DNA of 34,684 bases from a virus. Positions 4,116 to 34,095 of the stretch are shown piece after piece. A program made the position numbers and the translations under genes. Where the stretch lies: positions 1 to 34,684 of IMG/VR virus record IMGVR_UViG_3300032268_000050, one strand, 5' to 3'. The notes under the pieces were generated by a model, which worked only from the letters and a program-made list of their open reading frames with translations, searched no databases and had not been told where the DNA came from. Every line of letters starts with the position of its first letter. The first letter of the stretch is position 1.

Positions 4116-4624
4116 TATAGAGGAAAGTCATCTTCCATTTCATTAATTGCATCAATGCCTGTTGATTTAGCAAAGACATAATCTTCGAATTGTTTAGCAA
4201 TAGCTAATACTTCTTCTACTGATTTACCTGGACCTAGTAACTCTACAGCACTAGATAAAGATGATTGACGAACGATTAGCACTTGACGTGCAGCACGTTC
4301 TTCTTTAGTTTCATAGTTGCTACCAGTTACACGACCACCAGTTTGAGGTGTTGTTTTAGTTTCAGTTGCCACAGTTTTATCTCCTTCAAGACCAATCCAC
4401 TGCCAATAACCAGCAGCATCTTTTTCAGTTCGTAGATTAATTTGATCACCTTTAGTCAAATCTTTAATGTGATTAAACACACTAGGATTACTAAAGGACA
4501 TTAACTTTTTATTTTTTACTTGACCTTGATCATCTTTGTAAGTTACTTCAATTGATTGATAAGATCTGCCATTCTTTGCGGCATGAGTATTTGGTGCACC
4601 AACATCTATAATATTAATTAACAT
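4115..4624 (-). CDS. Single-stranded DNA-binding protein (SSB-like)
   Basis: 169 aa. The first roughly 90 residues have the strand-rich look of an OB fold with aromatic residues (SYQSIEVTYKDD, YWQWIGLEG). A Thr/Gln-rich linker and a helical segment follow, then an acidic, hydrophobic-tipped C-terminus (EMEDDFPL). That tail is the hallmark of phage and bacterial SSBs, which use it to recruit partners such as polymerase and helicase. The position between polymerase and 5'-3' exonuclease supports the call. The fold assignment is by pattern only. Confidence 0.75.
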   Translation of the reverse strand: MLINIIDVGAPNTHAAKNGRSYQSIEVTYKDDQGQVKNKKLMSFSNPSVFNHIKDLTKGDQINLRTEKDAAGYWQWIGLEGDKTVATETKTTPQTGGRVTGSNYETKEERAARQVLIVRQSSLSSAVELLGPGKSVEEVLAIAKQFEDYVFAKSTGIDAINEMEDDFPL

Positions 4625-5330
4625 TTACTATCTCCATATTGCCCCAGTTAGGTCCTACTTGACACTCGACCCTCATGGGAAGATTAAAATCTACTCCAAA
4701 CAATCTTTTAAAGTTTGCTGGAATATCCGTAAAACACTTATCAACAATCTTTACCATACTAGTATTATCGCATACTTCTTCATCAAAGTCAACAATAATT
4801 GAATCATGTACAGTATTGATTAGTTTAACATTTTTAATACCCTTAAGTCTGTTACTCAAAGATACTCTTGCAATTGCCATTAGGTCTGCACCTAGTCCTT
4901 GCACAGGGTAATTTAATATCTTTGTTCTAGGCCATTTAACTTGCCCTCCTCTAACATCAGGTTCATAGTAATAGATTCGTCCTGTTGGCATTGTGAGTTT
5001 TCTATCTCTTTTAGCGTCATTGACAATGTCAACATGCCACTCTCCGAGTCGTACATATTTTGCATAGAATTGATCAATAACACCTTGCCAAAACTTCTCT
5101 CCACCAATCCCTTTAAAGTCTGGATCTCTTGCATAACTCCAGGCTGACCCCCCATATATAAGTCTGAAGACGAAAGTCTTTGCGACCAATCTACTTGGTA
5201 ATCCAAATCTTTCTTGGTTATCGCTATGTTGATCGACATTATTTAATATCTCCTTAATTGCTATTAGATCTTGACTTAAGTATGCAGCACAAACCCATTC
5301 CAAAGCTTTTGCATCAGCTTGTAACAGCAT
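4614..5330 (-). CDS. Family A DNA polymerase, C-terminal (palm/fingers) part in a second frame
   Basis: This frame holds the catalytic part: motif A as LLQADAKALEWV (metal-binding Asp 6 from my start), a finger-helix segment RLVAKTFVFRLIYGG in the place of motif B, and motif C as NTVHDSIIVDF. The N-terminal part with the exonuclease domain is in another frame and ends at 5314. Joining needs a net +1 shift. The best independent start is the ATG at 5330, which has AGGAG (5340..5336) five bases upstream and overlaps the stop of the first part by 17 bases. A two-chain polymerase made by coupled initiation, a programmed +1 shift, and a sequencing or assembly indel are all possible. The open frame extends up to 5366. 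Confidence 0.88.
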   Translation of the reverse strand: MLLQADAKALEWVCAAYLSQDLIAIKEILNNVDQHSDNQERFGLPSRLVAKTFVFRLIYGGSAWSYARDPDFKGIGGEKFWQGVIDQFYAKYVRLGEWHVDIVNDAKRDRKLTMPTGRIYYYEPDVRGGQVKWPRTKILNYPVQGLGADLMAIARVSLSNRLKGIKNVKLINTVHDSIIVDFDEEVCDNTSMVKIVDKCFTDIPANFKRLFGVDFNLPMRVECQVGPNWGNMEIVNVN

Positions 5331-6483
5331 ACCTACTCCTAAATAATTGTTTAATTTCTCCATCAAAGTTCTGCAAGTTAGGTTTACTAGATGACAGTCT
5401 ACCTGTTCTTGCTACACATTGATTAAGTTGACCATATAGTTTATCTACAGGCCAGTTCATAGATGTTCTAAGTTCAACCAATCCTCTATAATAAGTTGTT
5501 AATCGTTTTTCTAGAGTTGCTCGGTCTAGTATTAACCTTACTAGTTCTTTAGCTTCTGCAGATCCACGTAAACTTTTAAGAGTTGATTCATCAGTTGAGA
5601 ACAATCCTTCTTTATCTAACTCAGATCCTTTTAATGGAGTAATACGTCTATCAAAGTTTATTAGATGTTCTACCCATTTTTCTTTTGCCTGTCCTTTGCG
5701 ATCTCCCGTTTTAAACAGGCCAATAACTTCTCTACGTTTTACTTTTATAATACCTCCGTAAAGTAAACAAGAGAGCTGCTCATTACTGGAAGGATTAAAC
5801 TCAGGAAGATTATGATAGGAAACCAAAGCATTATCAAGATATTTAATTTGTTGTTCCAATTCTTTAGCAAGAATATTAGCTTTTGTTTCATCAAATAAAA
5901 GTCCATTGTATTCCATTTCTTCTAAGATTAGTAAGTCTTGGTTATGTAAACTGATTAACCTTTGCATAGATTTTGTGCATAACGCAAATTCTTCCATTTG
6001 TTTATCAAATACTTTATGCGTAAGATGCAAATCACCAATTAGATATTCTTCTAGAATTTCTTTAGGGATATTAGGAGTGTCTATCTTGTTGCCCCAATAC
6101 TCTGTAGCAACAACATCAAGCTTGCTACCCAGATCATAGTACTCAGAGACACCATTAAGACTTGGATAGGAATCTTGTTGTCCACGCAATATAAAATGTA
6201 CCAACTGACAATCCCAAACACGCTTACCCACAAAGTTAATTCCATATTTGCGAAGCCAATGCAAATCAAACTTAATGTTAAAGCCAACCAGTATCTCAGC
6301 TTGATCAATTTCTTTTTGGATCTCCTCTAGTTTATGTCGATAAGGTTCATCACCATACTCGATAGCATAGCATTGAGTTTTGTCAGCATTGGATAACCCA
6401 ACGTAACAAAGTTTATTAGACTCGTCAAATGGGTTACCCTTGTTACTGATTGTTGTTTCTACGTCTAAGACTAAGCTCCGCAT
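5314..6483 (-). CDS. Family A DNA polymerase, N-terminal part (3'-5' exonuclease and thumb)
   Basis: I place the start at the ATG at 6483 (389 aa) because GGAGG sits just upstream. A TTG at 6495 is an alternative. Exonuclease motifs are MRSLVLDVET (D7, E9) and LVGFNIKFDLHWLRKYG. A later YLIGDLHLTHKVFD supplies the third motif. The frame runs through the polymerase segment VARTGRLSSSKPNLQN and stops 13 codons after NLQN, before motif A. The protein therefore lacks the catalytic aspartates, which are in the overlapping next frame. T7-type polymerases are normally one chain of about 600-700 aa, and the two parts together match that length. Confidence 0.9.
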   Translation of the reverse strand: MRSLVLDVETTISNKGNPFDESNKLCYVGLSNADKTQCYAIEYGDEPYRHKLEEIQKEIDQAEILVGFNIKFDLHWLRKYGINFVGKRVWDCQLVHFILRGQQDSYPSLNGVSEYYDLGSKLDVVATEYWGNKIDTPNIPKEILEEYLIGDLHLTHKVFDKQMEEFALCTKSMQRLISLHNQDLLILEEMEYNGLLFDETKANILAKELEQQIKYLDNALVSYHNLPEFNPSSNEQLSCLLYGGIIKVKRREVIGLFKTGDRKGQAKEKWVEHLINFDRRITPLKGSELDKEGLFSTDESTLKSLRGSAEAKELVRLILDRATLEKRLTTYYRGLVELRTSMNWPVDKLYGQLNQCVARTGRLSSSKPNLQNFDGEIKQLFRSRYAVTS

Positions 6484-6629
6484 TCGCCTCCACAACCACT
6501 TAATTTTTCAATTGTTTCTTCAATAGTATCATTAGGATTACCTAATGTCAATACATCTTCTACTTCGAATGGTGATAATTGTGGGTTTACATTTAATACA
6601 TCTGCTGCTGTTGCATTAATAACTAACAT
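6471..6629 (-). CDS. Small hypothetical protein ending in a Cys/Gly motif (52 aa)
   Basis: The ATG at 6629 is preceded by a strong AAGGAG. The product is acidic and helical in the middle (SPFEVEDVLTLGNPNDTIEE) and ends SGCGGECGA. It overlaps the start of the polymerase gene by 13 bases, so its translation is probably coupled to the polymerase. The CGGEC ending could bind metal, but that is only a guess. No family is recognised. Confidence 0.7.
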   Translation of the reverse strand: MLVINATAADVLNVNPQLSPFEVEDVLTLGNPNDTIEETIEKLSGCGGECGA

Positions 6630-6640
6630 TCTTTCTCCTT

Positions 6641-7882
6641 TTATAAGTCCTCATAACGAGCAATTTCAGGTTTGATTAGAACCTGTGTTGAACCATGCCT
6701 AAGATCAGGCATAGTATCTTCATCACCTATAAGTTTATTCTTACAGATGTTGAAGTATCTAGTGCGGGATGTGTTATCTTGTTCTTTACCAATCCCTAGA
6801 ATCCAATCAGCTTCACCTTGTTTAGCTGTTTTAGATCCATCTACCATATCCATTGTTAGAAAAAGTTTCCCTTCCGCTTCGCCACTTGCTTGTGACACCG
6901 CGATGACGGGAGCGTACGTTTTAGATATTTCACGAGCCCATTGATATATTTGTTTAAGTTCAAGGTCATTACGATCTCCTTTGAATCCACGAATTTTATC
7001 TATCTGGTCGAAGATAATTAACGCAGGGTTATATTGTTTAAGTACAGATTCAATTCTATTTTTACTACTTGAATCCTCAAAGTCTAGAATTTTAATTCTA
7101 TTTCCTGTTAACTCTGAATAATCTTGTTTGTTTTTTGTTTTGTTTCTAAATAACTCCTGCGTTGTAAGACCAAGGGAAGCTTGATAAACCCTAATACCAA
7201 CTTTATTTCCTTGTTCTTCGTTGTTAAACCACAACACATCTCCATCAGTTTGGCTGACCATATGAGTAATTTCAGACGCAAGAAATGTAGTCTTACCAGT
7301 CTCAGGCCGAGCAAAGATAAACCCAAAGTCACCTTTACGCAAGCTACCAAGAGCTTTGTTAAGCCATCTATTACGCCACCGTAAACCTGGTGTGGCAACC
7401 TGGCTAGCGTACAATGTATCCAAGTCCATATCAACTGGAGTAATTTCATCAGCCTCTACCTCCTGGTGTTCAAAGTTATTAAATAATTCTAGCAGCTCGG
7501 CTGTTGTTTTTTTACCTGATTCTACATCTAATGCCATCAATGCTACTTGTCCTGCTAGAGAACGTCTTCGATGTTCTTCTAACAGTCCAATGATTACTTC
7601 AGGATTAGAAACATCTTGATTGTAGACATCTTCTAACAGTGCTATTAATTCTTTTCTTTCATTATCTTTTAATAAATAATTACTATTATAAAATAAATCT
7701 AATTCATTAATATTAATTATATTATTATTATTATATTTAATATAATATAAATCTATAATATTAAATAATTTATATAAATCATTATAATTAATCTTAATAT
7801 AATTTATGTTAACATACTTGTAATATTTTGTAAAGAGATTCCTGTCTGTACAAAATAACTTAGCTATTTGTTTCTCAACCAT
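6641..7882 (-). CDS. Replicative DNA helicase (DnaB / T7 gp4 helicase-like)
   Basis: 413 aa. RecA-like ATPase features are Walker A ARPETGKTT (191-199), a catalytic Glu region WFNNEEQGNK, Walker B LIIFDQID (288-295), and a glutamine motif before the C-terminal hairpin (ISKTYAPVIAVSQASG). It should unwind DNA as a hexamer at the fork. In T7 primase and helicase are one protein; here they are separate genes overlapping by 19 bases. Residues about 20-70 (about 7675..7825) are a striking Asn/Tyr/Ile-rich low-complexity stretch. A Shine-Dalgarno (AGGAG) lies 10 bases before the ATG. Confidence 0.92.
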   Translation of the reverse strand: MVEKQIAKLFCTDRNLFTKYYKYVNINYIKINYNDLYKLFNIIDLYYIKYNNNNIININELDLFYNSNYLLKDNERKELIALLEDVYNQDVSNPEVIIGLLEEHRRRSLAGQVALMALDVESGKKTTAELLELFNNFEHQEVEADEITPVDMDLDTLYASQVATPGLRWRNRWLNKALGSLRKGDFGFIFARPETGKTTFLASEITHMVSQTDGDVLWFNNEEQGNKVGIRVYQASLGLTTQELFRNKTKNKQDYSELTGNRIKILDFEDSSSKNRIESVLKQYNPALIIFDQIDKIRGFKGDRNDLELKQIYQWAREISKTYAPVIAVSQASGEAEGKLFLTMDMVDGSKTAKQGEADWILGIGKEQDNTSRTRYFNICKNKLIGDEDTMPDLRHGSTQVLIKPEIARYEDL

Positions 7883-8553
7883 TCGTTGATTTCTCCTGTT
7901 GAATATTCTTTAGGATCTTTGGGTGTAATTATTACATCCGAATCAATACCCTTTTGTTTTAAATTTCTAGCCTGTTTAACAGCTTCAATTGCTTTATCCC
8001 TATCCAACCATATAAAAACTTTATTAAAGCGTTTAAGGATAGTTTCTGTAAGTTCTAGGGGTATTATAGAACCCAACAAAGGTATTACACATACATTTTT
8101 ATTTGATTTAGCAATTTTAATAGCAGAAATTACATCTTCTACACATACAAGTGTATCACCTAAGCCATAGAATATCAAGGGTTTTTTACCTTTAGATATA
8201 TATTTAGGGCCATAGCCACTAAAGTTTCTACCTTGATGGTATTGAGGTGTGTTAACTAACACCAACATTTCTTTTCTAGATTCCCAACCAATGTGACTTA
8301 ACTTTACATCGTCTTGAGTAATACCATATTGCAGTAGCCATTGCATTGCTTTTAATGGTATGTTATAATCTAATACTAACTCATCAGATTGCATCGCATC
8401 CTCACGGGGCTCTGACAATCTGCTTCGTATACTATTTAGATCATTCTTTTGTTTTTTATATCCACAACCAAAGCAATAGAATCCATCAGTATATTCTGCT
8501 AGATTATCACGGCTACCACATTTAGGACAGTTAGTATGTTGGATAAAAGACAT
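7864..8553 (-). CDS. DNA primase (T7 gp4 primase-like, zinc-binding and TOPRIM)
   Basis: 229 aa. The N-terminal zinc-binding domain has C9, C12, C27 and C30 (CPKCGSRDN and CFGCGY), as in T7 gp4. A TOPRIM core follows with VCVEDVISAIKIA (E139, D140) and the metal-binding FIWLDRDKA (D184, D186). It makes RNA primers for lagging-strand synthesis. Its end overlaps the helicase start, so the two are probably made in a fixed ratio. AAGGA lies just upstream of the ATG. On its 5' side is the short intergenic region holding the oppositely directed pqqA promoter. Confidence 0.92.
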   Translation of the reverse strand: MSFIQHTNCPKCGSRDNLAEYTDGFYCFGCGYKKQKNDLNSIRSRLSEPREDAMQSDELVLDYNIPLKAMQWLLQYGITQDDVKLSHIGWESRKEMLVLVNTPQYHQGRNFSGYGPKYISKGKKPLIFYGLGDTLVCVEDVISAIKIAKSNKNVCVIPLLGSIIPLELTETILKRFNKVFIWLDRDKAIEAVKQARNLKQKGIDSDVIITPKDPKEYSTGEINEWLRNK

Positions 8554-8610
8554 TACAGATTTTCCTTAGGTAAGGTTAGGTGTTATATGCATGATTGTTT
8601 TCATTCATTA

Positions 8611-8619
8611 TGTTATAAT
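8611..8619 (+). promoter_or_regulatory. Extended -10 promoter for pqqA
   Basis: TGTTATAAT is a perfect extended -10 element (TG, one base, TATAAT at 8614..8619). No good -35 lies 16-18 bases upstream, as is usual for extended -10 promoters. The expected start, about 8626, falls at the 5' foot of the leader hairpin at 8625..8644. Confidence 0.6.
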
Positions 8620-8624
8620 AGTTG

Positions 8625-8644
8625 TATAGAATGAAAATTCTATA
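8625..8644 (+). promoter_or_regulatory. pqqA leader stem-loop with GAAA tetraloop
   Basis: An 8-bp perfect inverted repeat (TATAGAAT / ATTCTATA) encloses the loop GAAA, a GNRA tetraloop. It begins where the transcript is expected to start and ends 11 bases before the Shine-Dalgarno. A hairpin at the extreme 5' end typically protects mRNA from 5'-dependent decay. It could instead be a dyad operator site. Confidence 0.55.
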
Positions 8645-8668
8645 TTAACTTTCATAAAGGAAAATATT

Positions 8669-8740
8669 ATGTGGACAACTCCAGCAGCTACAGAAATGCG
8701 TTTTGGCTTTGAAGTAACAATGTATGTAATGAATAAATAA
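8669..8740 (+). CDS. pqqA: PqqA: pyrroloquinoline quinone precursor peptide
   Basis: A 23-codon gene read from the plus strand inside the minus-strand arm. The peptide begins MWTTPAATEMR and ends FGFEVTMYVMNK. It has the PqqA length (23 aa), the N-terminal MW-x-x-PA, R11-x-G13, and the E15-V-T-x-Y19 motif whose Glu and Tyr are cross-linked by PqqE to build PQQ, with Asn at 22. From memory, Klebsiella PqqA is also 23 aa and shares MW, PA, R, G, EVT, Y and N at the same positions. AAAGGA lies 7 bases upstream, and the gene has its own promoter and leader hairpin. No pqqB-E is present, so host enzymes would be needed. PQQ is the cofactor of methanol and other dehydrogenases, so the gene probably raises host oxidation capacity during infection. 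Gene finders usually miss a gene this short. Confidence 0.9.
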   Translation: MWTTPAATEMRFGFEVTMYVMNK

Positions 8741-8781: not shown

Positions 8782-8806
8782 GCAGACGCCCTAACAAGGG
8801 CTCTGC
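8782..8806. terminator. Stem-loop between the convergent pqqA and 54-aa gene
   Basis: GCAGA-C-GCCC pairs with GGGC-TCTGC around the loop TAACAA, giving nine pairs with one bulged C. It starts 2 bases after the stop of the minus-strand gene at 8809..8973 and 41 bases after the pqqA stop. Neither strand has a T-tract, so it may act as a processing or protection hairpin, or a weak terminator for both directions, rather than a classical intrinsic terminator. Confidence 0.45.
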
Positions 8807-8808
8807 AA

Positions 8809-8973
8809 TCATATGTCGTCAACTTTTTGTACTTCACCAGTAGATTTATTAAGTTCATACTCAGGTAATTCTTTTTTCTTTTTAGGAAATATTAAATCCC
8901 AATTATCTTGACCTTCTTTAGATAGTTTTTTATTAATAATTTTATTTCCTGTAATATCATTTCTATTCGACAT
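8809..8973 (-). CDS. Small Lys-rich hypothetical protein (54 aa)
   Basis: The ATG at 8973 lies inside the last codons of the zinc-ribbon gene and has AAGGAG upstream (8 bases). The product is Lys- and Asn-rich, with a central DNWDLIFPKKKKELPEYELN and an acidic end. It looks like a small nucleic-acid-associated or unstructured protein. No family is recognised. It is the last gene before the pqqA insertion, so minus-strand transcription must pass the 8782..8806 hairpin to reach the primase gene, unless the primase has its own promoter. Confidence 0.7.
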   Translation of the reverse strand: MSNRNDITGNKIINKKLSKEGQDNWDLIFPKKKKELPEYELNKSTGEVQKVDDI

Positions 8974-9294: not shown

Positions 9295-10044
9295 TTAATT
9301 ACTCCTATAATAATTGTATATTGCTTTTTGATATTTGTCAAGTGTTGTTCCTTCTAATCCTGGTGCAGTATTAACTTCGAACACGAAGAATTTGTTATCG
9401 ATTAGTCTGTGCCCGATGTCAACGGCACCAAAATCAAGGCCCAATAATTTAACGGCTTGGATTGATGATAGTAGTAGCTCTTCGGACGGAGCTATTTCTG
9501 CCCTTGTATATACCCATCCATTACTGTAGTTCCTAATGCCTGATCCCCCAAGGGATCCATTACGCTTACGCTTCATTTGAACATCAATAACTTTGTCTTT
9601 AAATACATGTACACGATACTCATGTTTATGTTTAGTATGCAATGTATATAGTGGTGCATATGTAAGTCTATCACCATTATTACATATAACTATACCACGA
9701 CCACTATGTCCCATAAGATTTGTACGACAGTATACCTTTAGTCCTAAGTCAAGCCATTGTTGTGCTTCACTAGGATTAGTAGTCCAGTCTGGTACATCTT
9801 TAAAAGATTTAGTACGGTATTCTAAAAAAGTATTTAGTTTATTACTAGCCAAAGCAATAGCTTGTGGTTTATTAAGATCTTGTTCCATCCACCTAAAGTG
9901 TGGTGGTGCAGAGTTACCCCAATTAACAATGACATCATTGCGTCTAGCATTGTATGTAGGAGTAACCCGTAACACACCAAGTGCACGGGCTAATCGTTTA
10001 GCGGATACGCTACTAGATTTGTAAGGAAATATTTTAAGACTCAT
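9295..10044 (-). CDS. ATP-grasp ligase-like protein
   Basis: 249 aa. The ATP-grasp fold is indicated by KVYCRTNLMGHSGRGIVI (nucleotide-binding loop region), HEYRVHVFKDKVIDVQMKRK, and the metal site VFEVNTAPGLEG with its E-x-N pair near the C-terminus. Such enzymes activate a carboxylate with ATP and join it to an amine or thiol. It overlaps the amidotransferase gene by ATGA and lies in a three-gene cluster with an amidoligase. Clusters of this type have been predicted from comparative genomics to make or modify peptides or cell-wall material. The substrate is unknown. Confidence 0.85.
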   Translation of the reverse strand: MSLKIFPYKSSSVSAKRLARALGVLRVTPTYNARRNDVIVNWGNSAPPHFRWMEQDLNKPQAIALASNKLNTFLEYRTKSFKDVPDWTTNPSEAQQWLDLGLKVYCRTNLMGHSGRGIVICNNGDRLTYAPLYTLHTKHKHEYRVHVFKDKVIDVQMKRKRNGSLGGSGIRNYSNGWVYTRAEIAPSEELLLSSIQAVKLLGLDFGAVDIGHRLIDNKFFVFEVNTAPGLEGTTLDKYQKAIYNYYRSN

Positions 10045-10967
10045 TTAGTTTTTTTCCTTAATAAAGTAGGTGATGCATAGTTATGATATGCAGGTATACC
10101 TACAGGATCTATTGAGTCATCTTCAAAGTCATCTACATAGTTAAGAACATTATAAGGAACATTGTATAAGAACCCAGCATTACCATCAAAACCATCAATC
10201 ATTAGATCACATGAGAAGTCTTGGTTGATTGCACATACTTCTGCTATCTCACCTGATTCATAAGTTTTAAGTGTAGCTGGATCGGCTATGTCTTCTAGTA
10301 ATTCTACCATGTCACCTACTTTTAATCCTATATTTTTAGAAGCAGGTACTTTAGCTTTGTAAGTAGCTACTGGTTTACGCCAGTTACCATAGCTATAGTC
10401 TGTATCTTTCCAAGTAGTTACAGGTGCTACATATGGCTTGTAACTGTTGTTACTATACCATACACCATCATCCCATACACCTTTACCTTCATTCATAATC
10501 TTGTGATTGCCATGTCTATCAAGGAACACAAGTTTACTGTATCCAATACGACCTTCGATAAGGTCTATGATTGGATCTTGGAAGAGAGCCAAGTTACCCC
10601 ATTTGTGTACAAGTGGTTGAAGAATTGCATTATTAAATCCAATGGTATCACTATGATTAGTATCACCGAAACCATTGATAATGCCATTATGGACAAAGCC
10701 AATTGAATTATTAACTGCAAAGGGATGACAATTTGTTGTATCAATTTTACCATGAGTCTTGATCCTAAAGTGAATGACTGTTTGTTTGTGTTCATGTTCT
10801 TTGTATGCTTTGTAAAAAGAATCATAGCTAAAGAAACCTTTTTCTATATGAAGCTTTTTATTTTGAGCATACATGAATCCAGCACCATCTGGGTTGGAAT
10901 CATAACATTCTTTAAGTGTTGCTTGAGATAAGATTTTATCTTGAGGTTTATAAATTGCAATACACAT
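10041..10967 (-). CDS. Class II glutamine amidotransferase
   Basis: 308 aa. The Ntn-hydrolase glutaminase domain starts with catalytic Cys2 (MCIAIYKP), so the N-terminal Met must be removed. It continues with NPDGAGFMY, HFRIKTHG, NCHPF and FVHNGII, all diagnostic of class II glutaminases. After about 190 residues a separate domain follows, with LKVGDMVELLEDI and SGEIAEVCAI, resembling a small SH3-like barrel. It should release ammonia from glutamine for the neighbouring ligases. AAAGGAG lies before the ATG, and the ATG overlaps the amidoligase stop (TAATG). Confidence 0.88.
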   Translation of the reverse strand: MCIAIYKPQDKILSQATLKECYDSNPDGAGFMYAQNKKLHIEKGFFSYDSFYKAYKEHEHKQTVIHFRIKTHGKIDTTNCHPFAVNNSIGFVHNGIINGFGDTNHSDTIGFNNAILQPLVHKWGNLALFQDPIIDLIEGRIGYSKLVFLDRHGNHKIMNEGKGVWDDGVWYSNNSYKPYVAPVTTWKDTDYSYGNWRKPVATYKAKVPASKNIGLKVGDMVELLEDIADPATLKTYESGEIAEVCAINQDFSCDLMIDGFDGNAGFLYNVPYNVLNYVDDFEDDSIDPVGIPAYHNYASPTLLRKKTK

Positions 10968-12529
10968 TATACATACTCCTTTAAATGATAGCTAAGTTCT
11001 GGGAACATACGTCTTCTACTAGATAACCAATGCATAAATGACTCATAGTGAGTCTGTTTCTTTAGTGCTTGATTGGATTGAGCTGGGCTACAATAGTCTA
11101 CTAATGCTTGAACAAACTGTAAGCGACTAGCAAATTCTTTGTAGTTCATAGGTGTTGCAAACAATCTTACTTCAATTGTTTTTTCATTGTTAAGATTGAG
11201 TGCATTGTATCTGTTACTACCACTCCTATGTTTTCTTAAGAATGTAATGGTACGATCACTCTCCATACGAGCATACTGATTGTCTATACGACCTGCAATA
11301 TGATGTATAAAATCTTTATTATCTAAACGATTTAAGAATTCAATCAGCTTTCCAATTGTCAACTGCGACAAAGGTTTGCGACTGATATGCACATGCATAC
11401 CCACATTGTTTGCTATCTTAAGATCAGGTGGTATATTATCGTAGAAGTTTTTGAAGATGTCAAGATGTATATCTAATGTAGCTGGACATGTAACAATCTC
11501 AAAACCATTACGAATAGAACCATCAGATTTCATAAGAGCATGACCATGCATTAGTTTACCAACACCTAGTTGTGCACGATTACGATTGTTTGTTTCGTAT
11601 TCTAACTCACAACCTAGATACACAGTATTAGGTCTAACACGCGTAGCCTTGAATTTAAGCATTTGTTCTACACGAGTAGAATAATTATGTATCTTGAATG
11701 ATGCATCAAGACAGTGATGACATACTTTGTCAATCATAAGTTCTGTAACAGTTTCGTTACCACAGTTATTACAGGTATCAATGCTTACTTCATTACGATT
11801 ATATACATGACCATCATGAAAGAATTGTTCAGGAGTAAGCCATATATCATAGCGGTCATTGAATAGATAACCATAGTTTATTGGATCAGTGCGTTTATGT
11901 ATGTGTTCCCATGCTGTAGAGCCTAGTCTTACACGCTTTTGAGTACCATCTACATGATAAACTTCTGTTAAGACGTCTTTGTAATAAGACCATGAAGGTA
12001 TAACTTTACTTTCAAGAAAGGTTTCAATAGATTCTTCAAACCCATCACTAGTTACATCAGATGCTATGCTAACAGCTTCATTAAGCATGTGTTGTGTAAC
12101 CCATGATGGTCGTAATGCATTAGAGCGTAAGCGTCTACGCAATGCACCCCAGAATCCTTTTTTTTGAGTTCCATTTTTATTATTGAATTGCATTGGATTA
12201 ACAAGATAGTATAAAGCATCAATAATAGTAGAGCCATTAGCTCTATAACTTGCATGAGTTAACAGTCCTGTTTCTACACAAGCATCACGATACATATTAT
12301 ATATTGTGAGTGCTCTAGATTTATTGTTTGGATCATTTGTATAGAATTGTAATACACGCTGATCTTTATACCAAATGGTAGATAAAGTAGAGTTACTACG
12401 AACAGTTGCTTGTTGTTCATAGTCCCAATTGTTTTCTTCTTTAGTCCAAAATGTTTGTCGTATGTCTGGATGTTCCCATCTAAACATATTGAATACTTTT
12501 TGGAAATCACTAAAACTATATGGTTTCAT
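10967..12529 (-). CDS. Amidoligase-family protein with N-terminal extension and zinc ribbon
   Basis: 520 aa. The C-terminal part (about 303-460) matches the amidoligase family, relatives of glutamine synthetase: YLGCELEYE, LMKSDGSI..GFEIVTCPA, GMHVHISR, RYNALNLNNEKTIEVRLF. It is preceded by a zinc ribbon (C253, C256, C270, C273) and a roughly 240-residue N-terminal region I do not recognise. Together with the class II amidotransferase and ATP-grasp genes it forms a coupled trio. Related trios are known from other phage lineages, such as phiEco32-like phages. The product could modify a peptide, peptidoglycan or host protein. AAGGAG lies 6 bases before the start. Confidence 0.85.
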   Translation of the reverse strand: MKPYSFSDFQKVFNMFRWEHPDIRQTFWTKEENNWDYEQQATVRSNSTLSTIWYKDQRVLQFYTNDPNNKSRALTIYNMYRDACVETGLLTHASYRANGSTIIDALYYLVNPMQFNNKNGTQKKGFWGALRRRLRSNALRPSWVTQHMLNEAVSIASDVTSDGFEESIETFLESKVIPSWSYYKDVLTEVYHVDGTQKRVRLGSTAWEHIHKRTDPINYGYLFNDRYDIWLTPEQFFHDGHVYNRNEVSIDTCNNCGNETVTELMIDKVCHHCLDASFKIHNYSTRVEQMLKFKATRVRPNTVYLGCELEYETNNRNRAQLGVGKLMHGHALMKSDGSIRNGFEIVTCPATLDIHLDIFKNFYDNIPPDLKIANNVGMHVHISRKPLSQLTIGKLIEFLNRLDNKDFIHHIAGRIDNQYARMESDRTITFLRKHRSGSNRYNALNLNNEKTIEVRLFATPMNYKEFASRLQFVQALVDYCSPAQSNQALKKQTHYESFMHWLSSRRRMFPELSYHLKEYV

Positions 12530-28311: not shown

Positions 28312-29907
28312 ATGGCATCACTTAATTTATTTACAAATAATGCATCAACTACCTTAGCTTCTGGTATCAATAGTTCTGTTACTTCATTAACAGTAGCTGG
28401 TGGTACAGGGGCTTTATTTCCAACATTAGCAGGATCAGAATACTTTTATACTACCTTAAGCAACATTGCTGGTACTATTATTGAAATTGTTAAAGTAACG
28501 GCAAGGTCAACAGACACATTTACTATTGTTCGTGGTCAAGACAATACTGCTGCTGCTTCATTTATTGCAGGTGATAAAGTAGAGTTACGAGTAACAGCTG
28601 CTGATCTTCAAAACTTTCCACAATTAGATTCTACTAATACTTTTGCACAAATTCAAACATTTACTAATGGTGTTTCTCTTGGTGTAGACTTACCAGTAGC
28701 TGAAGGTGGTACAGGGGCTTCTACTGCAGATACAGCTAGAAATAACTTAGTTGCTGCTAGATCAGGTTCTAATACAGATATTACATCTCTCTCTGGTTTA
28801 ACTACTCCATTATCAGCTGGTCAAGGTGGTACGGGTGCTACCTCATTAGTTAATGCTGGTATTGATTTAGTAACATTTACTTCAACACCTACTGCTGCAG
28901 CTACTACTACTTTACTTAGTACTAGTAACTCTGTTCAATTCTTTACAGGCACAACAACACAAACTGTAGTATTACCTTTAGCCTCTACAATGGTATTAGG
29001 TCAACGTTTTACAATCCATAATAATAGTACTGGTGCTTTAACTGTTAACTCTTCTGGAGCTAACTTAGTAGGAACTGTACAACCTAACACAACTGTTGTT
29101 ATTACTTGTATTAGTACATCAGGTACATCAGCTGCTTCTTGGGATTATGATTTTACTGGTTTTACTACAGCCCTCCCTACTGCTCGTGGTGGTACAGGCT
29201 TAACAACTATTGGTACAGCTAACCAAGTATTAGCAGTTAACTCTGGTGCAACAGCTCTTGAGTTTCAAACTGTTGCTGCTGGTGGTACTGGTACTCCATG
29301 GATTAATAGATATTTTACTTCATCAGGTACTTATACTCCTACAGCAACTACAAAATATGTAGTAGTATCAATAGGTGGAGGAGGCGGAGGCGGAGGCGGT
29401 GGTAGTGGTTATAATCAATATTGTGGTGGTCCAAATGGAAATGGATCTGCAGGTAATTCTGGACAAGCTTCTTCTTTTGGTAGCCATATAACTGCTAATC
29501 CTGGAAATGCTGGAAATGGTGCTTCAGGTGGTGTTACAGCAGGTAACAATGGTAATGCCGGTTCGGCTACTTCTCAAGGAGCAAATACTGTAGAAATTGT
29601 ACAAGGTTTTTCAAGTACTTCTGGTGCAGCAGGAATTGTTACTTATAATACTTATGGTGCAGGTGGTGGTGGTGGTGGTGGTGGTCAGTATGCTTCACAA
29701 GATGAATGTGGCGCCTCAGCAAGACCTGGTGGTTCTGGAGCTAGTGGAGGTGTTAAAACAGTTAAAATGACTGCTGCACAATTAGGAGCAAGTGTTGCTG
29801 TTACTCTTGGTAGTGGTGGTAATGGAGGTGCAGGAGGAGGTTGGCTGGCTAATAACGGAGCTGCCGGCGGTCAAGGAACTTTAGTAGTAACGGAGTTCTT
29901 TGCTTAA
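28312..29907 (+). CDS. Tail fibre / adhesin with glycine-rich C-terminal domain (531 aa)
   Basis: The N-terminal beta domain (LASGINSSVTSLTVAGGTG, with IVRGQDNTAAASFIAGDKVE) is typical of virion-attached fibre bases. The middle carries repeats of the fibre type (VAEGGTGASTADTARNNL, SAGQGGTGATS, TARGGTGLTTIG). From about residue 355 it becomes extremely Gly/Asn/Ser-rich, with two runs of eight or more Gly, then ends in strands (VTLGSGGNGG, TLVVTEFFA). Glycine-rich distal domains serve as receptor-binding adhesins in several phages. Its stop overlaps the first oxygenase gene (TAATG). Confidence 0.85.
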   Translation: MASLNLFTNNASTTLASGINSSVTSLTVAGGTGALFPTLAGSEYFYTTLSNIAGTIIEIVKVTARSTDTFTIVRGQDNTAAASFIAGDKVELRVTAADLQNFPQLDSTNTFAQIQTFTNGVSLGVDLPVAEGGTGASTADTARNNLVAARSGSNTDITSLSGLTTPLSAGQGGTGATSLVNAGIDLVTFTSTPTAAATTTLLSTSNSVQFFTGTTTQTVVLPLASTMVLGQRFTIHNNSTGALTVNSSGANLVGTVQPNTTVVITCISTSGTSAASWDYDFTGFTTALPTARGGTGLTTIGTANQVLAVNSGATALEFQTVAAGGTGTPWINRYFTSSGTYTPTATTKYVVVSIGGGGGGGGGGSGYNQYCGGPNGNGSAGNSGQASSFGSHITANPGNAGNGASGGVTAGNNGNAGSATSQGANTVEIVQGFSSTSGAAGIVTYNTYGAGGGGGGGGQYASQDECGASARPGGSGASGGVKTVKMTAAQLGASVAVTLGSGGNGGAGGGWLANNGAAGGQGTLVVTEFFA

Positions 29908-30539
29908 TGTCTGAACTAAAAATTGCTTTATTACAAGAGCCCTTTCCTCATGCAATTATTGATAACTTTTATAATGAAGATGAACTAAAGTTAATTTGGC
30001 AGGAACTTGATTACTATACGTATTCAAATAAACTTGTTCCTGCTAGTACTTTAGGAGGGGCTACACGTAATGGTGAGAAACTACCAAAACATAATGGTGT
30101 TTCTTTAGATGAAATTTATGGTGATAATAGACAAATATCTAATATTTTAAAGTGTAATAGAAAAGTATTTGATAAAAATATACTAGAAGCTTTTGCATCA
30201 CTTAGTCCTTTAATTTGGGATATTAAAGAAGTTGATCAGGATTATACAATAATTAAATATTATGAAGATAGTGACTATTATAAATTTCATAAAGATAAAG
30301 CAAGATTTACATGTTTAACTTATTTATATAAAGAACCTAAAAGTTTTACTGGCGGTGATTTACATTTTCATCAGTTTGATTATACTATTCCTATTGTTAA
30401 TAATAGACTTATATTTTTTACTGGATGTATAGATCATGCATCAACAATATTAAATATAAATGATAAGTATAAAGATAAAAAGTTTTCAGGATTTGGTAAG
30501 TATACAATTACACAATTTCTAGGAAATACGTATGGTTAA
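29907..30539 (+). CDS. 2OG-Fe(II) oxygenase (prolyl-4-hydroxylase-like), 210 aa
   Basis: It starts with FPHAIIDNFYNEDELKLIWQ, the usual beginning of phage prolyl-hydroxylase-like proteins. The iron site is H128-x-D130 (YYKFHKDKA) and H177 (CIDHAST), with K198 (GKYTITQF) in place of the usual Arg for 2-oxoglutarate. It directly follows the tail fibre with a one-base overlap, so the fibre or a surface glycan is a candidate substrate, which is inference. Confidence 0.85.
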   Translation: MSELKIALLQEPFPHAIIDNFYNEDELKLIWQELDYYTYSNKLVPASTLGGATRNGEKLPKHNGVSLDEIYGDNRQISNILKCNRKVFDKNILEAFASLSPLIWDIKEVDQDYTIIKYYEDSDYYKFHKDKARFTCLTYLYKEPKSFTGGDLHFHQFDYTIPIVNNRLIFFTGCIDHASTILNINDKYKDKKFSGFGKYTITQFLGNTYG

Positions 30540-31041
30540 TACGAAAATATTTAGAGAGTTTTTAACAATTGAAGATTTAGATTATATAGAAACAATAATT
30601 AGTACCCCAAACTGGTCTTGTTTTCATAAATCTAATATTCAAGATCCTAATGCTTCTCTTTTTTGGCAAATGGGTAAATTAGAAAATGATGAATTCTTTT
30701 CTGTTTATTTATTAAATAAAATTAAAGAAATTACAGGTGATAACTTTGAACTTGAACGTATTTATTTTAATGCTCATAATGCTTGTAGTCAAGGGTATCA
30801 ACATACAGATTCTAAAGATAAGAATGGTAGAACATTTTTAGTTTACTGTAATAGATTCTGGAGTTTTGAACATGGTGGTGGAACTTCTATTTTAAATGAA
30901 AATAGAGAAGTTGAAACATATTTTCCATATCCTAGATCTGCAATATACTTTCAAAATAATCTTGAACATTTAGCTACTCCTATTAGTAAAGATTTTAAGG
31001 GTGTACGAGTTACATTAGCATTTAAATTATTTAAAATTTAA
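30532..31041 (+). CDS. 2OG-Fe(II) oxygenase family protein (169 aa)
   Basis: Iron and cosubstrate residues are H91-x-D93 (GYQHTDSKDKNG), H146 (NNLEHLATPI) and R159 (GVRVTLAF). The GGGTSIL strand and FPYPRSAIYF are also typical of phage members. It overlaps the previous oxygenase gene by 8 bases, so the two are coupled and may act in sequence or as partners. The substrate is unknown. Confidence 0.85.
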   Translation: MVNTKIFREFLTIEDLDYIETIISTPNWSCFHKSNIQDPNASLFWQMGKLENDEFFSVYLLNKIKEITGDNFELERIYFNAHNACSQGYQHTDSKDKNGRTFLVYCNRFWSFEHGGGTSILNENREVETYFPYPRSAIYFQNNLEHLATPISKDFKGVRVTLAFKLFKI

Positions 31042-31043
31042 AT

Positions 31044-31211
31044 ATGAAAAAAGAAATAGTTTTACATAGAATAAATACCTGTAAGTCTTGTGAAAATATG
31101 TTTACAACTTTAGGTATTATAAGATGTAAACTTTGTGGTTGTGCTATGCAAGCTAAAGTATTATTAAAAGATAGTAAATGCCCAATAGATAAATGGAGTT
31201 CTGAAGAATAA
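31044..31211 (+). CDS. Small four-Cys-pair zinc protein (55 aa, DUF6171-like)
   Basis: It has NTCKSCENM, RCKLCGCAMQAKVLLKDSKC and PIDKW. The spacing CxxC...CxxCGCxM..K..L....CP..KW is a signature I recall as DUF6171, a tiny zinc-binding family scattered through phages beside fibre or glycan genes (name from memory). Its function is unknown. It lies between the second oxygenase and the sulfotransferase-like gene, sharing one base with the latter's ATG. Confidence 0.75.
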   Translation: MKKEIVLHRINTCKSCENMFTTLGIIRCKLCGCAMQAKVLLKDSKCPIDKWSSEE

Positions 31212-31732
31212 TGTATAGCATATTTCATACGTCACACTGTGGTTCAACCTTATTAGCTTGTAAATTAAGTAAATCAATACCTACAATAACAGAACCTGAT
31301 TGGTCTCATGATGCTAGAAATATAGAAGACCTTTGGGAAAAGGTTGACTTTCTAAAAAAACATCATCCTAAAGATACATTAGTAAAGTACTCTAGTTTAA
31401 TTTGTGATGTTATGCCACATTTAGAAGGTAGAAAAGTATTTTTATATAGTAACTTTGAAAAACATATTAAATCTTTATCTAAATACTTTACAGACAATTC
31501 AGCTTATGAAGCTCAAAGTGAAGCATTGTTTTGGACAAAAAGATTTACATGGGCTGTAATTTCTAATGATACTTTATATGTAGACTCTGATTACTTTTTA
31601 AATAATCAAGAAGAAGTTTGTAAAGTAATTTGTGAACATTTTGAAATTGAATATAAACCAGTTGAAGTTTTATTTAATGTAAAACGTTCTGGTTATAATC
31701 ATCATAATACTCCTATTAATGTAGGATATTAA
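31211..31732 (+). CDS. Sulfotransferase-like protein (173 aa)
   Basis: The N-terminus FHTSHCGSTLLACKLSKS resembles the 5'-phosphosulfate-binding loop of PAPS-dependent sulfotransferases (S/G-STLL), followed by the common TEP. The end DTLYVDSDYFLNNQEEVCKV, then FEIEY, matches the typical late helix pair (Y.D...D....V..I...). The usual 3'-phosphate-binding Arg/Ser segment is not obvious (YSNFEKHIKSL). It would transfer sulfate to a glycan or protein. An APS kinase-like gene two genes downstream could supply PAPS. Confidence 0.6.
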   Translation: MYSIFHTSHCGSTLLACKLSKSIPTITEPDWSHDARNIEDLWEKVDFLKKHHPKDTLVKYSSLICDVMPHLEGRKVFLYSNFEKHIKSLSKYFTDNSAYEAQSEALFWTKRFTWAVISNDTLYVDSDYFLNNQEEVCKVICEHFEIEYKPVEVLFNVKRSGYNHHNTPINVGY

Positions 31733-31734
31733 TT

Positions 31735-31755
31735 TTGTATAATAATATTATACAA
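31735..31755 (+). repeat. Perfect inverted repeat covering a TTG start codon
   Basis: TTGTATAAT, a three-base centre AAT, and ATTATACAA form nine pairs. The first three bases are the TTG start of the following oxygenase gene. In RNA this hairpin would hide the start codon. Confidence 0.6.
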
Positions 31756-32277
31756 GGTGAGGTTAATAAAGAACTTTCTGACTATATTTATAATACTATA
31801 ATTTCTGATAATTTTGGTTGGTATTGGAATGAACTTCAAATTAATCCTAACAAACTTGTAGATCAAATAAGTGGATTTACACATGTTTTTTATAAAAAAG
31901 ACGGATTTGTAAATTCAGCTTTTAATGTAGTTATACCATACTTATTAGATGAATTAAAAAATGTAATAGATGTAGACCATGTTGTTAGAGGACAAGCAAA
32001 TTTACTATGTAATATAAATGTTTCAGAAGAAGAAAATATTAATAGTTTACATACAGACTCTCCTGATGATAATACTTTTAGTATTTTATATTATGTTATA
32101 ACATCAGATGGAAATACTGTTATATATAATAAAGAGGGATCTAATATTAAAGTAAGTCCTATTAAAGGTAACTACGTTATATTTCCTTCAAATCTTTTAC
32201 ATAAAGCAAGTCCTCCTAAAGACAATAAAAGAAGAGTGGTAATTAATATTATTGTTAAGGGCAAATTAAAAAAATGA
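31735..32277 (+). CDS. 2OG-Fe(II) oxygenase family protein (180 aa, TTG start)
   Basis: Iron-site residues are H106-x-D108 (NSLHTDSPDDN), H156 (NLLHKASPP) and R167 (RRVVINIIVKG), with the usual GNYVIFPSN strand before the distal His. It begins with TTG, about nine bases after AGGA, and the start lies in a perfect hairpin. No other start codon lies nearby in frame. Its stop overlaps the kinase ATG by ATGA. Confidence 0.82.
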   Translation: MYNNIIQGEVNKELSDYIYNTIISDNFGWYWNELQINPNKLVDQISGFTHVFYKKDGFVNSAFNVVIPYLLDELKNVIDVDHVVRGQANLLCNINVSEEENINSLHTDSPDDNTFSILYYVITSDGNTVIYNKEGSNIKVSPIKGNYVIFPSNLLHKASPPKDNKRRVVINIIVKGKLKK

Positions 32278-32714
32278 AAATATTAATTATGGGTTTATCA
32301 GGATCTGGTAAATCTGAATTAGCAAAAGAACTTTATAGTTTGTTTCAAAGTAATGAAGAGTCCTCAGTAAGATTAAATGGGGATGAGGTTAGAGAAGCTT
32401 ATAATGACTGGGATTTTAGTACTGAAGGTCGTATTAGACAAGCAGAACGAATGTCAAAATTAGCTAAAAAGAGTGAAGCTAAATATGTTATAGCTGACTT
32501 TATAGCACCAACTAAAGTAACTAGAGATATATTTAATCCTGATTTACTTATATGGGTAGATACTATTAGGTCTAGTAAGTATACTAATACCGATGTTGTA
32601 TTTCAAAACCCTAAAAATTATAAATTTAAGATTACTAAAAAAGATGCTAAAAAAGAAGCATTAAGAATATTTAATTATTTAAAAGGAACTAAACATGAAA
32701 AATGCATTAATTAA
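32274..32714 (+). CDS. APS kinase-like P-loop kinase (146 aa)
   Basis: The Walker A loop is GLSGSGKSELAKEL (7-20), preceded by a hydrophobic strand. RLNGDEVREAYNDWDFSTEG then matches the adenylylsulfate kinase LDGDxVR...L.FS...R pattern, and RIRQAERMSKLAKKSE with VIADFIAPTK continues it. The protein is shorter than typical CysC (about 200 aa) at the C-terminus. It would phosphorylate APS to PAPS, the donor for sulfotransferases such as the neighbour at 31211. Other small-molecule kinases of the same fold are possible. Confidence 0.75.
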   Translation: MKILIMGLSGSGKSELAKELYSLFQSNEESSVRLNGDEVREAYNDWDFSTEGRIRQAERMSKLAKKSEAKYVIADFIAPTKVTRDIFNPDLLIWVDTIRSSKYTNTDVVFQNPKNYKFKITKKDAKKEALRIFNYLKGTKHEKCIN

Positions 32715-33111
32715 TCCAATTGATTTAACAGAAGGTTATCCTTCAGTTGTATCAGTAAGTGATACTAGATTTGAAACAGTACCTGAATACTATTGGGTAG
32801 AATGTCCTGATGATACAGTAACAGGTATGTATTATAATAATGGTACTTTTGTATTACCTGCACCTCCTACACCAGTACCTCCAACTCCTGTTCCTCCAAC
32901 AGCAGATGAAAACAAACAACTAGCGTTAACAAAACTAAAAAACTCTGATTGGGTAGAACTTCCTAGTGTTAGTGCTACTACATCAATTCCTCATTTAACA
33001 AATGCAAATGAATTTATAGTTTATAGAAATACATTAAGAGCTATAGCTGTAAATCCTGTAGCAGGTGATATGAATTGGCCTCTTAAACCAGTTGAGTTGT
33101 GGTCAGAATAA
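32695..33111 (+). CDS. Proline-linker protein, tail fibre assembly-like (138 aa)
   Basis: The N-terminal half is small and beta-rich (PEYYWVECPDDTVTGMYYNN). A Pro/Thr/Val linker with a repeated PPTPV unit follows at about 56-69, then a helical end (ENKQLALTKLKNSDWVELPS, NEFIVYRNTLRAIAVNP) and NWPLKP. Two-part proteins ending in this DUF4376/tail-fibre-assembly-like domain lie beside fibre genes in many phages. It is probably a fibre chaperone or accessory. It overlaps the kinase gene by 20 bases. Confidence 0.7.
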   Translation: MKNALINPIDLTEGYPSVVSVSDTRFETVPEYYWVECPDDTVTGMYYNNGTFVLPAPPTPVPPTPVPPTADENKQLALTKLKNSDWVELPSVSATTSIPHLTNANEFIVYRNTLRAIAVNPVAGDMNWPLKPVELWSE

Positions 33112-33720
33112 ATGGAGCAAGTAGACGAAACTACATATAAAGTAAAAGCATCTCATAAAGATTTTATTGGTATTTACGAAGATGTTCTTTCAAAAGAAAG
33201 ATGTCAAGAAATTATAGATAAAATGGAATCTCATATGGACTCTGATCCAGCTGAAATTGGTAAAGGATCTTCTCAATTTTCAAATGCAGATAATGGTAGA
33301 AAAGATTATCAAATATTTGCAAATAAAGTATTTAGTGGTGTTTCTAAAGAGATTAATAGTGTTTTAGATGTATGTGTTAAAGCCTACGCTGATGAGTTTT
33401 TTGTATTAAAAAACATAACAAAGATAAGATCAGAAGAAGTTAAATTACAGATGACACCTCCTCGTGGAGGGTATCATGTATGGCATGCTGAACAAGATAG
33501 TAAAGGTAACAGCGATAGAATATTAGCTTGGACATTATACTTAAATGACATACCTGATGGTGAAGGTGAAACTGAATTCTTATGGCAAGGTGTTAGAGTA
33601 AAACCTAAAACTGGCACTATGTGTATTTTTCCAGCAGCGTTTACACATACTCATAGAGGTAATCCTGTACATTCTTGCAATAAATATATAGCAACAGGTT
33701 GGTTTATTTTTAACGAATAG
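33112..33720 (+). CDS. 2OG-Fe(II) oxygenase family protein (202 aa, H-x-E type)
   Basis: Segments seen are FIGIYEDVLSKERCQEIIDK (start), then GGYHVWHAEQ with H125-x-E127, LAWTLYLNDIPDGEGETEFL, FPAAFTHTHRGN with the distal His (179 or 181), and K191 (KYIATGWF). The family usually has H-x-D; the H-x-E form occurs in some members. The wording around LNDIPDGEGETEF is typical of phage prolyl-hydroxylase-like oxygenases. It is the last of the oxygenase group before the release genes. Confidence 0.87.
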   Translation: MEQVDETTYKVKASHKDFIGIYEDVLSKERCQEIIDKMESHMDSDPAEIGKGSSQFSNADNGRKDYQIFANKVFSGVSKEINSVLDVCVKAYADEFFVLKNITKIRSEEVKLQMTPPRGGYHVWHAEQDSKGNSDRILAWTLYLNDIPDGEGETEFLWQGVRVKPKTGTMCIFPAAFTHTHRGNPVHSCNKYIATGWFIFNE

Positions 33721-33729
33721 GAGAGTAAT

Positions 33730-34095
33730 ATGGATCCAATAACTATATTATCAGCATTTTTACCAGTTGCTATGGACTTAGGTAAGTCTCTTATTAATAA
33801 GTTTGTAGCACCTGATCAATTTAAACCTGCAACCATCGAGCAGTATGCTCAAATGAAAAGCATAGACTTAGAGTTCTTTAAGGTTATGAATGACGCTGGG
33901 GCAGGTAATTCTTCTTACCCTTGGGTAGAAGCCATTGTTAGATTAATGAGACCTCTAATAGGCCTTCTTGTGCTTTCTACATGGGTATATATGCATGTAA
34001 CTGGTATAGGAACTCCTGAGGTAGATAACTTTGCTAGTGCTGTAGGTTTCTACTTATTTGGTGAGAGAAGCTTATTTTATATTAAAAAGAAATGA
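33730..34095 (+). CDS. Holin-like membrane protein (121 aa, 3TM GTA-holin type)
   Basis: The N-terminus DPITILSAFLPVAMDLGKSL is followed by a central soluble segment and hydrophobic stretches RPLIGLLVLSTWVYMHVTG (about 73-91) and FASAVGFYLFGERSLFY. The sequence resembles the small 3TM holin family also found in gene-transfer-agent release modules. It probably takes part in lysis by opening the inner membrane. AGGAG lies before the ATG, and the gene overlaps the metalloprotease gene by ATGA. Confidence 0.7.
   Translation: MDPITILSAFLPVAMDLGKSLINKFVAPDQFKPATIEQYAQMKSIDLEFFKVMNDAGAGNSSYPWVEAIVRLMRPLIGLLVLSTWVYMHVTGIGTPEVDNFASAVGFYLFGERSLFYIKKK

Follow-up and report, generated by a model that had tools for sequence, protein, structure and literature searches.

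Comparison with known systems

Auxiliary metabolic genes (AMGs) of phages normally encode enzymes or photosystem proteins. A familiar case is cyanophage psbA (photosystem D1), a phage-carried gene for the fastest-used component, which keeps the energy metabolism of the host going. The gene studied here, pqqA, encodes PqqA, the precursor peptide of pyrroloquinoline quinone (PQQ), and it lies at positions 8669–8740 of the IMG/VR virus record IMGVR_UViG_3300032268_000050, a stretch of 34,684 bases analyzed as a whole and hereafter called the window. The closest described system is a Lake Baikal population of T4-like methylophages, VP_266, which carries pqqA together with methanol dehydrogenase (PMC7678222, from 2020); pqqA has also been listed among sediment viral genes (PMC13188868).

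The window and VP_266 are alike in the presence of pqqA, in the predicted host family of the phage, Methylophilaceae, and in the benefit proposed for the gene. However, VP_266 is a single large T4-like contig with a methanol dehydrogenase of its own, whereas the window represents a small phage with pqqA alone. Furthermore, in the lineage of the window the gene is near universal and changes its site, and neither isolates nor a cassette structure have been described for VP_266. As with psbA, it is the most rapidly consumed component that the phage carries, but PqqA is a consumed peptide substrate, the precursor of a ribosomally synthesized and post-translationally modified peptide, and not a protein subunit or an enzyme; the host would thus be given only the consumed precursor of a cofactor. 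The orphan pqqA genes of Methylophilaceae themselves share with the phage gene the same peptide, a stand-alone unit and, in many copies, a TCATGA box 31–32 nt before the −10 element. They differ in showing no excess of 5'-terminal hairpins, in a weaker −10 and in often having a clear terminator.

Identity of the gene

The presence of a phage-borne pqqA in the window was confirmed. The gene is placed as follows:

8669–8740, plus strand: pqqA, orphan gene for the PQQ precursor peptide, 23 amino acids (PF08042 and TIGR02107, selection, Glu15/Tyr19)

The frame of 23 codons encodes the peptide MWTTPAATEMRFGFEVTMYVMNK and has all the residues described in the initial annotation, including the Glu-x-x-x-Tyr motif fused by PqqE (E15 and Y19). 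The assignment to PqqA, which had been made from the letters alone, held in profile searches: the peptide scored 40.3 bits against PF08042 (E=3e-10, cut-off 21.1, profile positions 1–19 of 19) and 38.8 bits against NCBIfam TIGR02107 (cut-off 20, positions 1–21 of 21). It is identical to copies from Methylotenera/Methylophilaceae and to the peptide of the cultured phage P19250A. By megablast, 91 bp of the window were 93.5% identical to P19250A, and nothing else in 13 kb matched. A PqqA-like DNA pattern occurred once in the window and in none of 100 shuffled versions. Chance origin is excluded because of this absence from the shuffles and because the gene is common to phages without other near-identical DNA.

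The window encodes DnaB, a family A DNA polymerase, terminase, an SU10-type portal and a major head protein, and the neighbours of pqqA are phage replication genes with colinear relatives. The gene thus appears to be an AMG in the usual sense, a host-type metabolic gene under selection within a genuine phage genome. Host contamination was ruled out, as colinear relatives have pqqA at the same place.

Distribution among phages

When 50,697 phage records were searched by tblastn, PqqA was found in nine records of cultured methylophages belonging to five lineages (P19250A, MEP301, Venkman, MEP401, MEP402 and four Melnitz records), all isolated on Methylophilales, and in one environmental podovirus. 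This count leaves out the methylophages MEP431–434, HIM624-A and MG-MTP1 and makes no claim of universality among isolates. The two remaining matches were a bacterial pqqABCDE region filed as phage. 'Acinetobacter phage MD-2021a' (CAKLQF020000010.1, L007) was therefore rejected as a carrier from outside the methylotrophs, its record containing a bacterial pqqABCDE operon; with its bacterial genes, including pqqB–D and a radical S-adenosylmethionine gene, the record looks like misfiled host DNA.

The expectation that so small a gene would be overlooked was borne out. It is too short for gene callers, and pqqA was named in no carrier record among those whose annotation was inspected. In Melnitz (L006, 4961–5056) and in the podovirus ctXG6705 (L008, 2067–2195) an antisense hypothetical open reading frame (ORF) is annotated over it, and the papers on the isolated carriers mention no pqq gene. 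As to novelty, which the initial annotation had left undecided, pqqA in a phage was already reported in 2020, and the window is no isolated case, given the five cultured lineages and the near-universality in its own. In the open literature we found no description of pqqA in isolates, of an orphan mobile cassette, of a hairpin leader or of a shared promoter box, nor of the near-universality and mobility of the phage gene.

Scans of IMG/VR with IUPAC DNA patterns detected pqqA in at least 120 contigs. For the lineage of the window, 48 IMG/VR relatives were gathered by means of its terminase. Exactly one PqqA was present in 9/9 relatives of at least 38 kb, and most of the fragments were without it. 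In the sister clades, with terminases roughly 43–56% identical to the MW202796 query and including an Alcaligenes phage (44.5% identical to the window), it was present in 0/10 records of at least 38 kb (lineage vs sister clades, Fisher P about 1e-5, ignoring relatedness). The terminase tree placed every carrier within one fully supported clade. In the phage lineage of the window pqqA is nearly universal. The peptide is a practical marker for phages of PQQ-using methylotrophs. The gene was also seen on a 356-kb viral contig, of jumbo-phage size (L251, IMGVR_UViG_3300023174_000036).

Proposed function and host

The phage gene is probably a functional AMG of a consumable-substrate kind, topping up PqqA for the PqqB–E of the host, and the occurrence of the same gene in many methylophages suggests that methanol oxidation is kept running during infection. 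The phage would make the 23-residue precursor alone; after cross-linking of Glu15 and Tyr19 of the phage peptide by host PqqE–PqqD, the synthesis of PQQ for methanol dehydrogenase (XoxF/MxaF) would be completed by PqqB, PqqC and proteases of the host. One molecule of PqqA would be spent per PQQ while the maturation enzymes are reused, and for this reason PqqA would most likely run out first once infection slows host transcription. Supply of PqqA alone should then suffice, and high output would be favoured by the stand-alone unit with its strong −10, its 5' hairpin of mRNA-stabilizing type and its strong ribosome-binding site (RBS). The initial proposal of a phage contributing nothing but the consumed substrate is supported by the agreement of the gene's identity, orphan state, Glu15/Tyr19, purifying selection and link to methylotrophs.

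On the host side, pqqA was present in 100/100 Methylophilaceae genomes (median 4 copies, maximum 12; at least two in 97/100), and the copies are mostly scattered genes. Multiple copies would be expected if the dosage of PqqA is important. Amplification of the substrate gene is already seen in the host, and the phage contributes a further copy. Five pqqA copies are described from one methylotroph (PMC9851590), and according to work cited in PMC7936290 PQQ in Gluconobacter increases when single pqq genes, pqqA among them, are raised on their own.

Several points weigh against the substrate reading. MW202796 (MW202796.1, L384), a complete phage inside the carrier clade, is without pqqA; it would be a natural control if its host were found. 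Methanol dehydrogenase was found neither in the window, where the Pfam search covered 20 proteins, nor in 40/41 other pqqA-bearing phage records. Finally, we infer expression of the gene, a rise in PQQ and a benefit to the phage, and likewise that the host of the window phage is most likely a methanol-eating (methylotrophic) bacterium.

It is unlikely, though less so than the alternatives considered below, that the additional PQQ is used for a purpose unrelated to methanol oxidation (other PQQ dehydrogenases, redox protection or a post-lysis effect, for instance); the gene product would still act as PqqA. This would fit the presence of a PQQ alcohol dehydrogenase in only 1/41 pqqA-bearing phage records and the few viral peptides that are closer to those of other gammaproteobacterial groups than to Methylophilaceae. 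However, all cultured carriers infect methylotrophs, in which the dominant PQQ enzyme is XoxF, xoxF being the most abundant transcript of an OM43 methylotroph strain (PMC5120137). If PQQ is raised by the phage gene, viruses would directly modulate the oxidation of methanol by the abundant aquatic methanol users OM43 and LD28, and the idea is testable now, as cultured carrier phage–host pairs exist (P19250A, MEP301, Venkman, MEP401/402, Melnitz).

Separately, a 72-kb viral contig (L054, IMGVR_UViG_3300025120_009955) has pqqA and, at 34049–35731, a PQQ-dependent alcohol dehydrogenase above the cut-off, like the Lake Baikal case.

Missing maturation enzymes and selection on the peptide

The phage pqqA is an orphan and not a member of a pqqABCDE operon. 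In profile searches PqqE was found in 0/10 phage records (the window and nine relatives), the cut-off being passed by 4/6 host genomes, of which the other two may be incomplete. A tblastn search of about 147 viral loci detected no PqqB–E.

The lack of phage pqqB–E would also be compatible with a decoy peptide, which binds PqqE/PqqD through the same recognition residues, blocks or diverts PQQ synthesis and shuts down host metabolism. This is improbable: the cross-linked residues never vary, while loss of reactivity would be expected of an inhibitor, and the phage peptide can equal the host's own. Glu15 and Tyr19 were invariant and followed by an in-frame stop in 120/120 contigs among the matches listed, counted with patterns in which residues 15–19 were left free.

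The pqqA sequences of the lineage, taken by profile search, had a mean synonymous difference of 0.56, near saturation, and a non-synonymous difference of 0.035, with a ratio of non-synonymous to synonymous change (dN/dS) of 0.035; the alternative frames over the gene were mostly closed (16/264 open). This pattern points to purifying selection on phage PqqA at the protein level. The isolated stretch shared with P19250A could suggest that the DNA or RNA matters rather than the peptide, in the role of attachment site, homology arm, small RNA or decoy target. The near-saturated synonymous sites, low dN/dS and closed frames nevertheless make such a role very improbable; in addition, the flanking DNA differs and the annotated proteins of the window include no integrase. 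An attachment site or a function of the RNA only was rejected on the synonymous divergence.

Genomic sites and mobility

On one colinear backbone, pqqA occupies four or more sites:

Site A, between primase and a small ORF, antisense: window, G005, G014, G044, G073
Site B, start of the structural arm: nine records
Site C, after the major capsid gene: G040
Site D, far end of the structural arm: G008, G016, G025, G048

The flanks of site A in the window, both colinear in relatives, are:

7864–8553, minus strand: primase (Toprim; PF01751, phrog_47), marking insertion site A
8809–8973, minus strand: small conserved ORF on the other flank

Both neighbours are thus on the strand opposite to pqqA, as the initial annotation had noted, and in all mapped records pqqA follows the strand of the structural genes. 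In the IMG/VR set, with simple ORF calls, both neighbours were opposite for 46/129 pqqA genes vs 121/2092 gene triplets of the same contigs. In the terminase tree a site-D phage clustered with the window and its closest relative at site A (support 98/86), and the move of pqqA is therefore recent. At sites A, B and D the gene follows closely similar promoter-leader regions (TTTTCATTCATT, TATAAT and a GAAA-capped hairpin), and the unit therefore travels with its control region. Of the traits of a stand-alone gene of moron type, a promoter of its own and the antisense setting are supported, and a terminator is not clear in the window. Capture by chance of a neutral host fragment, for which the host family with its many scattered pqqA copies offers material, is as remote as the DNA or RNA role, since the gene was kept in all nine long relatives through repeated relocation and strong purifying selection, with no frameshift seen in 120 contigs among the matches listed.

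Leader, hairpin and promoter

The following elements surround the gene in the window:

8577–8582, plus strand: TAGGTG, a degenerate sequence at the position of the T(C/A)ATG(A/G) box (spacing analysis)
8597–8609, plus strand: GTTTTCATTCATT element, which also precedes pqqA in relatives (sites A, B and D)
8611–8619, plus strand: extended −10 TG-T-TATAAT with no consensus −35; TATAAT invariant in a seven-sequence leader alignment
8624–8645, plus strand: predicted 5'-terminal mRNA hairpin GTATAGAAT-GAAA-ATTCTATAT
8657–8661, plus strand: RBS AAGGA, 7 nt before the start codon
8782–8806, strand not assigned: GC-rich stem, a possible terminator, lying between pqqA and the small ORF that converges on it; same stem in relative G005

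The control signals ascribed to the gene were thus found in part. The RBS and TATAAT are present. A −35/−10 consensus promoter did not stand, with no good −35 and no call by a consensus promoter scanner, and neither did the downstream hairpin as a clear terminator, the stem at 8782–8806 having no U-run and not being called as one. An RBS of AGGA/GGAG type lies within 20 nt before the start in 142/148 phage pqqA leaders.

The leader hairpin of the window folds with −7.8 kcal/mol, and 5/200 shuffles folded equally well. Among the distinct phage pqqA leaders with an exact TATAAT (n=56), a strong stem beginning 4–8 nt after TATAAT was found in 30 vs 2.9 in shuffles (maximum 6). At other genes of the same contigs with TATAAT and an RBS, a stem in this place occurred in 3/41, and at host pqqA in 4/28 vs 2.8 in shuffles, with a looser threshold. 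The place of the phage hairpins is conserved, and their sequences and loops are widely different. In a GAAA-loop subset four pairs were changed on both sides, which is illustrative only, as the subset was chosen for pairing. According to works cited in PMC3997798, 5' stem-loops protect bacterial mRNA, for example that of ompA. Like the stem-loops treated there, the phage hairpin lies at or within a few nt of the predicted transcript start, but it is predicted from sequence only; by this analogy it may slow mRNA decay.

At phage pqqA genes the T(C/A)ATG(A/G) box was found 31 nt before TATAAT/CATAAT in 31 cases, and no other spacing had more than 4; in the rest of these contigs there were 4 at spacing 31 and no peak. 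Host pqqA promoters showed the same spacing peak (9 at 31 nt, 3 at 32 nt), and TCATGA was present at −130 to −60 in 17/28 host copies vs 0.9 in shuffles. Matches of the box pattern in host genomes outside pqqA were at about background level. The box was found post hoc from these leaders, and its main support is the sharp spacing in two separate sets. Many phage pqqA copies thus share a TCATGA-N31-YATAAT promoter with host pqqA. The copy in the window is not among them: no match to the box was found in its leader, where the sequence is degenerate and the box has been lost. The shared box gives a handle on a putative regulator of host pqqA.

Taken further, the pqqA cassette could be a near-universal mobile accessory of methylophages that has hijacked a promoter class of Methylophilaceae pqqA, added a phage-made 5' hairpin and feeds the host a substrate and not an enzyme, with TCATGA-N31-YATAAT marking a pqqA regulator. 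This combined proposal is tentative, falling slightly short of an even chance.

Other features of the window

The family A DNA polymerase is encoded by two overlapping genes (4614–6495, minus strand); MW202796 and an Alcaligenes phage have two polymerase genes each in their records. Four clustered genes at 29907–33720 (plus strand) are similar to 2-oxoglutarate-Fe(II) oxygenases, two of them below the Pfam cut-off. At 9295–12529 (minus strand) conserved genes for ATP-grasp and amidoligase proteins flank a third gene. This cluster is kept in relatives, resembles a cluster in an Alcaligenes phage and is possibly a peptide-ligase modification system.
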